Assembly: GCA_003050565.1 (NCBI GenBank)
Contig: PEBW01000007.1
Location: 1-64,000 of the forward strand
Reading direction: 5' to 3'
Source: Brockia lithotrophica
GTDB taxonomy: Bacteria; Bacillota; Bacilli; Thermicanales; DSM-22653
DNA: 64,000 nucleotides
Both the position numbers and the translations under genes were made by a program. Of this stretch, positions 621-5,480 are shown one piece after another. The notes under the pieces were generated by a model. That model did not search any database and was not told where the DNA came from. It was given only the letters and a program-made list of their open reading frames with translations. Every line of letters starts with the position of its first letter. Position 1 is the stretch's first letter.

Positions 621-1823
621 ATGGTCCTTTCCGTACAAAACGTCAGCAAGTCATTTGGAAAGTTGCGCGCGGTGGACGATCTCAGTTTCGAAGCCCATCC
701 CGGTCGGATCTTCGGCCTATTGGGAGCAAATGGGGCGGGAAAGACGACGACAATCCGGATGATCCTCGGGATCGTCTCTCCGGATGCGGGCCGGATCACG
801 TGGCGCGGCCAACCGGTCGATCGTGCGGTTCAACGGCGGATCGGGTATTTGCCGGAGGAGCTAAGCCTTGATGAAGAAATGAAGATCGAAGAAGTGCTCG
901 TGTACCTTGGAGAGCTTAAGGGACTGTCCGGGAGAGACGCAAAGGTGCGCGCTCGGGAGTGGCTCGAACGGTTTGGGCTCGGAGCGATGCGAAAACAGAA
1001 GATCGGAGTGCTCTCCAAGGGTAACCAGCAGAAGGTACAGTTTATCGCTGCGGTGCTCCACGATCCGGTTTCCCATCGTTCCTTGGAAGTTTCAGATGGA
1101 GGAAATTCACAAGAAAATCTAAGAATAGCGAGCGGAATCACCACTTTGTTCGTTTTGTTTTTTTACATAATAATAGGCGAGGGATTATTTTCGCTTGTGG
1201 CTGAGATTACAAAAGAAAAATCAAGTAGATTCATTGAACTTGTTATTCCTAGTGTTTCTCCTATAGGTTTTATGTTTGCAAAAATCATCGGTTACCTCGG
1301 ATTTTTTATAATTCAATATATTGCGATCGGATTAATTCTATTTATAATGAAAAGGATGGGGACTGTAAACATATTTGAAGAAGAGATTGATATTTCAAAA
1401 ATTCCGATTGAGCTCGTCCTGTATGCAGCTCTCTTGTTCATCCTGGGGTACTTGTTCTACGCGACGATAGGTGCGGTGGTCGGATCCATGGCCTCGCGAG
1501 TCGAAGATTCGGCCGTGGCAGTAAGCATTGTCATGCTCCCATTTTTCTTTGCCTTACTGATTACAACGCCCGCCTTCGCCATGCCGGATGCCGCGCTCGT
1601 CCGCGTACTTTCCTGGGTACCGCCGTTTACGCCGCTGCTTTTGTTCGTGCGGATTGCCCTTGGCGATATTTCCTGGTGGGAGATCGTCGGTGAGGTCGGC
1701 CTGCTCGGGTTGTCGACGATCGTTCTGCTTTTCGTTGCGGCACGCATATTTCGAAGGACCATCTTGAACTACGAGGGTGTAAGCTGGGGTCGCTTTTGGT
1801 CACTGTTGATGGATAGAGAATAG
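621..1823 (+). CDS. chimeric ABC protein: ATPase N-terminal half joined in frame to a NatB-like permease C-terminal half
   Basis: Residues 1 to about 150 are a NatA-like ABC ATPase with a Walker A (GANGAGKTT, near residue 40) and the signature loop LSKGNQQK. Immediately after LHDP the ATPase stops: Walker B, D-loop and switch His are absent. The rest is the membrane half of an ABC-2/NatB-type permease with about five hydrophobic segments, lacking its first membrane helix and large outer domain. Bases about 1085-1405 are AT-rich (about one third G+C by eye) against GC-rich flanks on both sides, including within the permease. This suggests deletion between neighbouring natA and natB genes plus recombination with a low-GC homologue. 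As it stands it should not hydrolyse ATP normally. ATG start with GAAGGGG upstream. Confidence 0.75.
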   Translation: MVLSVQNVSKSFGKLRAVDDLSFEAHPGRIFGLLGANGAGKTTTIRMILGIVSPDAGRITWRGQPVDRAVQRRIGYLPEELSLDEEMKIEEVLVYLGELKGLSGRDAKVRAREWLERFGLGAMRKQKIGVLSKGNQQKVQFIAAVLHDPVSHRSLEVSDGGNSQENLRIASGITTLFVLFFYIIIGEGLFSLVAEITKEKSSRFIELVIPSVSPIGFMFAKIIGYLGFFIIQYIAIGLILFIMKRMGTVNIFEEEIDISKIPIELVLYAALLFILGYLFYATIGAVVGSMASRVEDSAVAVSIVMLPFFFALLITTPAFAMPDAALVRVLSWVPPFTPLLLFVRIALGDISWWEIVGEVGLLGLSTIVLLFVAARIFRRTILNYEGVSWGRFWSLLMDRE

Positions 1824-2850: not shown

Positions 2851-2974
2851 CCGCGGCGCCCGAGGGTTTGTCAGCGAGAAGCGACCAATTTCAGAATATA
2901 AACGATGCAGGCGGTCGAAGCGATCCTCCCGGGCAAGATGCCGTTCTGGCCGGCAATTGAAGGGGGTTCGTACC

Positions 2975-4816
2975 TTGCAGGAGATTCGGGCCGATGCGAA
3001 AAACCTTCGGGCGCTTCTTGGCGGGACCAAGTTCAGCGTGGACTACTACCAGCGTGAGTACGGCTGGCAATCCGAACACGTCGCCGAGCTGATCAAAGAT
3101 CTGGCCGAGGAATTCAAGGAAAGCCATCGTCCGGGAAACGATCGGAGCGCCGTCGAACATTACCACCGTTACTTCCTCGGTTCAATCATCATCAGCAACC
3201 GGGACGGGAAAAAATTTATCGTCGACGGTCAGCAACGCCTCACGACGCTCACGCTTCTTCTGATCTTCCTGTACCGGCATCTGAATGATGAGGAGCAGAA
3301 AGCGCAGCTCGCTGACCTTATCTTTTCCCGGCGATTCGGCCGGCGCTCCTTCAATCTCGATATCGAGGAACGTTACGCATGCATGGACGCCCTTTTTACC
3401 GGGAAACCGTTCGATGAAACCGGGCAGCCTGAGTCTGTCGTCAATATTTATCGACGGTATCAGGACGTGGACGAATATTTTCCCGAGGAACTTCGAGGGG
3501 AGGCGCTCCCGTATTTTGCGGACTGGCTCATCGAGAACGTATACCTGGTAGAGATCACCGTCTACAGCGATGCGGACGCTTATCGAATCTTTGAGACGAT
3601 GAACGATCGCGGGCTACGCCTTACGCCTACGGATATGCTCAAAGGCTACCTTCTCGCGAATATCACCGATGAACGAGAGCGGAACGAGGCAAGCCGCGTC
3701 TGGCGCGAACAGGTAAGAAAGCTTCAGGAGATCGGCAAGGGAGAAGAAAGCGACGGAATCAAGGCGTGGTTGCGCAGCCAGTACGCCGAAAGCATTCGCG
3801 ACCGTAAAAACGGGACCAGGATCGGCGATTTTGAGCTGATCGGCTCACAATTTCACCGTTGGGTACGCGACAAGAAAGAAAGGATGGGCCTCACCAACGG
3901 CGCGGCCTTTGCGCGATTGGTCAAGGAAGATTTTTCCTTCTACTCCCGCTGGTACGCATATATTCGCGGTGAAGCCGAAAAAAACAAAATCCCAGGGCTC
4001 GAAGCGATCTATTACAATGCTCAGCTCAATTTCACGCTCCAGCACCCGGTCCTGCTTGCTCCGCTTCGGCGGGACGATTCCGAAGAGGAGATCCGGGCCA
4101 AGCTGAACGCTGTTGCGACTTATCTGGACATCCTGCTGGCCCGCCGCATCTGGAACTGGCGTGCCATCGATTATTCGACCATGCAGGACAGCATGTTTCA
4201 GATCATGCGTGAGATCCGGGGTCAGGATCTTCCCGCCCTCATCGATCGGTTGCTGGAGTGGCTGAATGCAGATAAGGAAACGTTTTCCAGCAATCCTGCG
4301 TTTCGGCTGCATGGAATGAACGGCCGACAGGTTCATTATCTGCTGGCGCGGATGACGGATTATGTCGAGACGCAATCGGGGCGTCCTTCCCGTTTTCACG
4401 AATACATTCAGCGACAGGGGGCGCAGGGATACGAAATCGAGCACATCTGGGCCAATCAGTACGACCGGCACGCCGATGAGTTTTCCCACCCCTCTGATTT
4501 CGCGGAATACCGAAATCGCCTCGGTGGTCTCCTCCTTCTCCCCAAAAGCTTCAACGCGAGTTACGGGGACCTCCCCTACGAAGAGAAGCGCAAACACTAC
4601 CTGAAGCAAAATCTTCTGGCTCAGAGCCTTCACGAGGAGGCGTACGAACATGATCCCGGGTTCGTCCGGTTCGTCAAGGAGAGCGGACTCCCGTTTCGTC
4701 CCCATGCCGAATTCAAGAAAGCCGATCTTGTCGAACGCCAGGAGCTTTATCGCCTCTTGGCCGAAAAGGTCTGGAGTCCAGAACGGCTGCTTCGGATCGA
4801 TCCTCTCCCTCAATAA
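2975..4816 (+). CDS. GmrSD-like DUF262/DUF1524 protein, candidate modification-dependent restriction enzyme
   Basis: A 613-residue protein. The N-terminal DUF262 domain has YYQREYGWQ near residue 26 and the nucleotide-binding-like motif VDGQQRLTTL, and a further conserved block ETMNDRG. The C-terminal DUF1524 domain has an HNH-type nuclease motif, YEIEHIWANQ, followed by NRLGGLLLLPKSFNASYG. In the family the first domain is linked to NTP binding and the second to DNA cleavage; characterised GmrSD enzymes cut glucosylated hydroxymethylcytosine DNA. The target here is unknown. The start chosen is TTG 2975, with GAAGGGGG eight bases upstream; the open frame continues further up but there it is the transposon relic in antisense. 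It stands alone, without modification genes. Confidence 0.8.
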   Translation: MQEIRADAKNLRALLGGTKFSVDYYQREYGWQSEHVAELIKDLAEEFKESHRPGNDRSAVEHYHRYFLGSIIISNRDGKKFIVDGQQRLTTLTLLLIFLYRHLNDEEQKAQLADLIFSRRFGRRSFNLDIEERYACMDALFTGKPFDETGQPESVVNIYRRYQDVDEYFPEELRGEALPYFADWLIENVYLVEITVYSDADAYRIFETMNDRGLRLTPTDMLKGYLLANITDERERNEASRVWREQVRKLQEIGKGEESDGIKAWLRSQYAESIRDRKNGTRIGDFELIGSQFHRWVRDKKERMGLTNGAAFARLVKEDFSFYSRWYAYIRGEAEKNKIPGLEAIYYNAQLNFTLQHPVLLAPLRRDDSEEEIRAKLNAVATYLDILLARRIWNWRAIDYSTMQDSMFQIMREIRGQDLPALIDRLLEWLNADKETFSSNPAFRLHGMNGRQVHYLLARMTDYVETQSGRPSRFHEYIQRQGAQGYEIEHIWANQYDRHADEFSHPSDFAEYRNRLGGLLLLPKSFNASYGDLPYEEKRKHYLKQNLLAQSLHEEAYEHDPGFVRFVKESGLPFRPHAEFKKADLVERQELYRLLAEKVWSPERLLRIDPLPQ

Positions 4817-4960
4817 GCAATAAGCGAGAGCGTTACGGGCGGGTAGCCCACCTGGCGACAGGAGCGCGGCGATCGGCGACGTTCAATGAGTAAGCGGAAG
4901 CCAGAGTGCCGCGTTTTGTCACCCTATCCGGGATAGAAGGAGCACGACAGACGTCCCGGA

Positions 4961-5001: not shown

Positions 5002-5111
5002 AGAAGCAGACGCCGTCTTCCGGCAAACCGAGATCCCGGTAAAGCTGCTCTTTTTGGGTTACAAAACTCGTCGGCGAAAGCCCCCGAAATTCATACCGGG
5101 GAGGAGGTCAG

Positions 5112-5258
5112 GTGGAGGTAGCGTGGTGTACGTGGCATGGAGAAAAGTTCGTCACGTACTCCGTCTACCGAGGTCGGGCAAAGCGCGTAGGCGGCGCGAT
5201 TTTTCCCTTGACACGGGGAAAGATCTTCCGTACAATTACGATCAACGCGGAACCTTAG
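5112..5258 (+). CDS. possible 48-residue protein of unknown function
   Basis: GTG 5112 follows GGGGAGGAGGT (from 5097) and opens a 48-codon frame. The product is not low-complexity: it alternates aromatic and charged residues (VEVAWCTWHGEKFVTYSVY near the N-terminus, GKIFRTITIN near the C-terminus), which looks like a small beta-rich fold. I recognise no family. The sigma-A promoter of the methionine unit lies within its 3' half, so part of the frame must serve two functions, or the frame is accidental. It is as likely to be the tail of a decayed gene as a functional small gene. Confidence 0.25.
   Translation: MEVAWCTWHGEKFVTYSVYRGRAKRVGGAIFPLTRGKIFRTITINAEP
5208..5236 (+). promoter_or_regulatory. 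sigma-A-type promoter of the SAM-riboswitch metXY unit
   Basis: A perfect TTGACA (5208-5213), a 17-bp spacer and TACAAT (5231-5236). Transcription would start near 5243, leaving about 115 nt before the riboswitch. Confidence 0.75.
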
Positions 5259-5357: not shown

Positions 5358-5480
5358 CCCTCTTATCGCGAGCGGCGGAGGGACTGGCCCGATGAAGCCC
5401 GGCAACCTGCCCCGTGTACGGCGCGGCGGGGCGAGGTGCTAAATCCTGCAGGAGAGGCGTTCTCCTGGGAGATAAGAGGG
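5358..5480 (+). promoter_or_regulatory. SAM-I (S-box) riboswitch
   Basis: CCCTCTTATC (5358-5367) and GATAAGAGGG (5471-5480) form a perfect 10-bp P1 stem. Between them are the S-box core blocks in order: GCGGAGGGACTGGCCCGATG, then AAGCCCGGCAACC, then GGTGCTAAATCC. These are the conserved SAM-binding and pseudoknot segments of the family. The element sits upstream of metX and metY and is followed by a strong terminator, the arrangement in which bound S-adenosylmethionine favours premature termination and so switches methionine synthesis off. Confidence 0.95.

Follow-up and report, generated by a model that had tools for sequence, protein, structure and literature searches.

Results

The window, by which we mean the whole 64-kb stretch of DNA that was analysed from the thermophile Brockia lithotrophica, carries close to its start a three-piece ABC gene (621–1823, + strand). 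Its open frame is intact over 400 codons (400 amino acids), and an AAGGGGA stretch resembling a ribosome-binding site, read from the sequence, precedes its ATG (606–613, +). The first piece (621–1067, +) is the 5′ half of natA and is 71–72% identical, at the amino acid level, to the natA of the family up to residue 149. The second (1068–1403, +) is an AT-rich fragment of a foreign natB, with 33% G+C, a GC3 of 0.28, and 43–49% amino acid identity to family natB. The third (1404–1823, +) is the 3′ end of the resident natB, with 61% amino acid identity to family natB. The initial annotation of this DNA had described a mosaic frame of 400 codons open through both joints, and the reading frame on the + strand confirmed this description.

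Domain searches agreed with the proposal that the first half of an ABC ATPase had been joined to the second half of an ABC-2 permease. Residues 19–149 match the Pfam family ABC_tran (PF00005) and end at position 127 of a 137-position profile, while residues 148–374 match ABC2_membrane_3 (PF12698) over profile positions 144–346 of 347. The ATPase part spans codons 1–149 of a NatA-type ATPase and retains Walker A (GANGAGKT at residue 35) and the signature motif (LSKGN at residue 131). A motif search found no match to the Walker B and H-loop motif anywhere in the 400-amino acid product. In the NatA proteins of relatives, LVIFDEP or IIIFDEP begins at residue 151 and SSH lies at residue 186; with 149 as the last shared natA residue, the cut falls just before Walker B and, as originally noted, just after the signature loop. 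The permease part is also incomplete, as the N-terminal helix and outer domain of NatB-type PF12698 proteins are missing, and hydropathy indicates about five hydrophobic segments in the product. Because the ATPase part has no Walker B, D-loop or H-loop, and the NatB part no first membrane helix or outer domain, the fusion is probably non-functional; judged by its sequence, it is very probably an in-frame pseudogene rather than a working transporter.

The left joint lies at a CGATCCG stretch (1061–1068, +), and DNA alignments to the natA genes at all three relative loci stop at base 1068. The right joint (1399–1424, +) lies within homologous natB sequence, where DNA alignments to Carbobacillus natB resume at 1404; besides this restart, one short stretch of conserved natB DNA was found at 1212–1285. 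In Hydrogenibacillus, CGATCCG occurs in natA and also near the matching point of natB. The 7-base microhomology was seen in the natB of this relative, not in the donor, and a two-residue length difference follows it. Measured against the natAB coordinates of relatives, approximately 1.4 kb is missing at the locus, with approximately 336 foreign bases in its place.

The three pieces differ strongly in base composition. G+C content is 57% over 621–1070, 33% over 1071–1406, and 55% over 1407–1820, with GC3 values of 0.66, 0.28 and 0.67 for the 5′, middle and 3′ parts, respectively. A three-segment fit placed the best change-points at 1103 and 1403 (2-lnL ranges 1068–1114 and 1399–1424), with a log-likelihood gain of 31.0 relative to a maximum of 15.9 over 1000 codon shuffles. 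A composition step of this size is well outside what chance would give. Of all 330-base stretches in the window, the AT-rich piece has the lowest G+C content (31.8% versus a mean of 65.3%, SD 4.7%), about seven standard deviations under the mean, and it is the sole region of the window at or below 42% G+C.

These values match the middle of about one third G+C that had first been estimated by eye. The accompanying view that the outer parts are GC-rich like the chromosome held only in part: they stand above the middle, but at 55–57% G+C they are clearly under the 65% mean of the window. Their composition is nearer that of Carbobacillus natA (60% G+C) and natB (56–61% by part) than that of the window. 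Given this lower G+C, the natAB pair itself may have been imported, and the history of the locus may involve more steps. We also asked whether AT-richness might be a normal trait of this region of natB, and rejected it; over the stretch matching the AT-rich piece, the natB genes of relatives have 58–61% G+C and a GC3 of 0.77–0.80. The composition step is therefore private to this gene, and the earlier proposal that a low-GC homologue had contributed was upheld.

In Hydrogenibacillus schlegelii (one locus) and Candidatus Carbobacillus altaicus (two loci), natA and natB are two complete genes that follow one another in the same order and contain no AT-rich patch; the full-length proteins comprise 314–358 (NatA) and 418–477 (NatB) amino acids. 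Among 398 genomes of the class, no match crossed the natA/natB joint, each being confined to one side of it, natA or natB. Likewise, when the whole protein was searched against 61 genomes, the best matches to the two halves sat in separate frames. The fusion is unique among the genomes tested, and the same architecture without a composition step, which the initial annotation had named as evidence against its reading, was not found. An intact natAB elsewhere in the B. lithotrophica genome was considered and rejected; a search for a second natB in this genome returned a single natB match only. natB was not found in the sister species (G001) nor in another genome of the family (G002), and a tblastn search upstream of the isochorismatase-family gene of the sister species detected no natAB remnant. 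With no other natB in this genome, and none in those two relatives, the transporter appears to be dispensable in the family.

The AT-rich piece shares 48.6% of its amino acids with Hydrogenibacillus and 43% with Carbobacillus, which share 60.7% with each other over this stretch. In the 3′ piece, all pairs among the fusion, Hydrogenibacillus and Carbobacillus are approximately 61% identical. The difference in identity between the two pieces is of modest significance (Fisher p = 0.067 and 0.013). In trees, both permease pieces fell inside the natB clade of the family (support 98/95 and 99/96), and these short pieces do not separate placements within the family (AU p = 0.40–0.43 for the AT-rich piece and 0.14 for the 3′ piece). 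Searches of 398 genomes of the class, 398 genomes of the phylum, viral contigs, phages and plasmids did not find the donor, and the closest match across them was the family's own natB, at 48.6%. From the placement of the piece, the most likely donor is low in G+C and either belongs to this natB clade or is closely related to it.

Several features surround the fusion. An open-ended fragment at the contig start (1–375, +) has dispersed copies in Hydrogenibacillus (G004) at 91–96% DNA identity, a far higher similarity than that of the surrounding genes; it has no Pfam match, and it is probably a recently exchanged piece of an insertion-sequence transposase. An insertion sequence at this position, if so identified, would explain the contig break at position 1. 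Upstream of the fusion, a non-coding stretch of approximately 110 bases (411–522) is 74–82% identical to single places in contig 5 of the same genome, in the sister species and in Hydrogenibacillus. Downstream, an isochorismatase-family (nicotinamidase-like) gene (2037–2594, +) is 87% identical in DNA to its counterpart in the sister species and lies at the edge of the shared chromosome. In the sister species, a different ABC exporter (L135, 3615–5246) lies upstream of the isochorismatase-family gene and is 90% identical to an ABC exporter (L021, 3038–4663) that follows natB in Carbobacillus. The spot upstream of the isochorismatase-family gene has thus gained different Carbobacillus-like transporter genes.

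Farther downstream, the region of a GmrSD-type (DUF262) restriction gene (2878–4936) is 96% identical in DNA to Hydrogenibacillus, with no close match in the sister species, and is likely to reflect a recent cross-genus transfer of a defence gene. A 45-base stretch at 2946–2990 has three closely spaced copies (89%) elsewhere in the same genome, on contig 2. A stretch of about 50 bases at 5053–5112 recurs at 81–93% identity in many places in the genome and the family as a dispersed short repeat. At 5360–5478, a SAM riboswitch (RF00162, 86 bits) lies upstream of a homoserine acetyltransferase-like frame; related copies occur elsewhere in the family.

Discussion

We propose, with a probability of roughly 0.6, that natA and natB collapsed in a single homology-facilitated illegitimate event with a low-GC natB fragment, leaving an in-frame pseudogene. 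The starting state would have been a natA-natB pair encoding a NatAB-type ABC-2 exporter, and the incoming DNA a natB fragment from a relative that is low in G+C and whose natB belongs to the same clade. The right end of the fragment would have recombined inside natB by homology at about 1404, while its left end would have joined natA at the few bases of microhomology at 1061–1068. The 3′ half of natA and the 5′ half of natB would have been deleted in the process, the foreign bases left in their stead, and the joint would have stayed in frame by chance.

Homology-facilitated illegitimate recombination (HFIR) is known in the transformable species Streptococcus pneumoniae, Acinetobacter baylyi and Pseudomonas stutzeri and in E. 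coli; its products combine a homologous joint at one end with a microhomology of 3–10 bp at the other, and they have lost about 1 kb of DNA (PMC3240628). The joint at about 1404, inside aligned natB, is a homologous joint on one side, as in an HFIR product. An HFIR product would form from incoming linear DNA in a RecA-dependent manner. The genome contains members of the ComEC and DprA families, which makes DNA uptake plausible, though it is not thereby shown.

The initial annotation had reasoned that a deletion between natA and natB would leave composition unchanged, so that a second exchange was needed. The first part of this argument stands. The second is not compelling, since the natA/natB joint (1061–1068) touches the edge of the range for the left composition step (1068–1114); joint and step coincide within error, and one HFIR event can explain both. 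It is nonetheless conceivable, at a distinctly lower probability, that the locus records two separate events, a homologous exchange that patched natB and a natA-natB deletion, later or earlier, that ended at the left edge of the patch, with the same non-functional product. Both types of event are common, and because the left change-point is uncertain by 46 bases, its exact coincidence with the joint is unproved. However, on this course the deletion must either have stopped, by chance, no more than about 50 bases from the edge of the patch, or have ended within a patch that was once longer and then lost its left part.

An assembly join is unlikely as the source of the fusion. The DNA very probably belongs to B. 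lithotrophica AL31, a genome assembled from a metagenome; its published bin has a GC content of 64.3%, and Carbobacillus and Hydrogenibacillus were present in the same sample (PMC5928048). The distance from the gene to the contig end is 620 bases. An assembler, or the library itself, could in principle have stitched together natA, a low-GC natB belonging to a different organism and the end of natB. However, short-read assemblers need tens of identical bases, whereas the natA and natB of relatives share few at the left joint, and at the right joint family natB DNA is about 68% similar; neither joint shows an extended shared sequence. The reading frame continues through both joints, the natAB genes of co-assembled relatives are too divergent (about 70% DNA identity) to have served as sources, and the AL31 bin was reported at 435-fold coverage with 0% strain heterogeneity (PMC5928048).

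We regard as very improbable a functional new fusion protein, retained because its membrane half or its ATP-binding half acts alone. A frame of 400 codons kept open over two joints, a ribosome-binding-site-like stretch ahead of its ATG and about five hydrophobic segments could reflect function, but a recent in-frame pseudogene would look alike, the Walker B and H-loop motif is missing, two genomes of the same family do without natB, and the architecture occurs in no other genome tested. Similarly improbable is that one-step recombination between a low-GC fragment and a two-gene operon made a new gene, the hybrid being expressed in a new role such as that of a nucleotide-binding membrane protein without hydrolysis.

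In sum, the three-piece fusion is real and is what remains of an ABC exporter operon; DNA uptake and recombination most likely left it behind as a dead by-product. The single collapse that we favour is a real but fairly ordinary event whose mechanism is of a known kind, and as yet nothing of wider functional importance follows from one gene that is probably dead. The value of the fusion is that of a clean natural case: a fused gene, a deletion within an operon and imported low-GC DNA are all legible in one 1.2-kb gene. If a strain with an intact pair, or the donor, is found, the locus would become a test of whether HFIR makes fusion genes in nature.

The gene order matches that of the NatA/NatB-type ABC-2 exporter (PF00005 and PF12698) of H. 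schlegelii and Ca. C. altaicus. In those relatives the exporter consists of two full genes of even composition, whereas the fusion is one gene that has lost the 3′ half of natA and the 5′ half of natB and carries a low-GC piece. Natural one-chain ABC proteins also place an ATP-binding part before an ABC-2 membrane part; in contrast to the fusion, they keep a complete nucleotide-binding domain, including both Walker B and the H-loop. HFIR products were observed directly in experiments, whereas the event described here is inferred, and, unlike in those products, the foreign DNA in the fusion is itself homologous to natB. In their overall form the two are alike: the fusion and the HFIR products (PMC3240628) share a homologous joint at one end, a foreign insert, and a deletion on the order of 1 kb, and the CGATCCG stretch at the other end of the fusion may correspond to their short microhomology.
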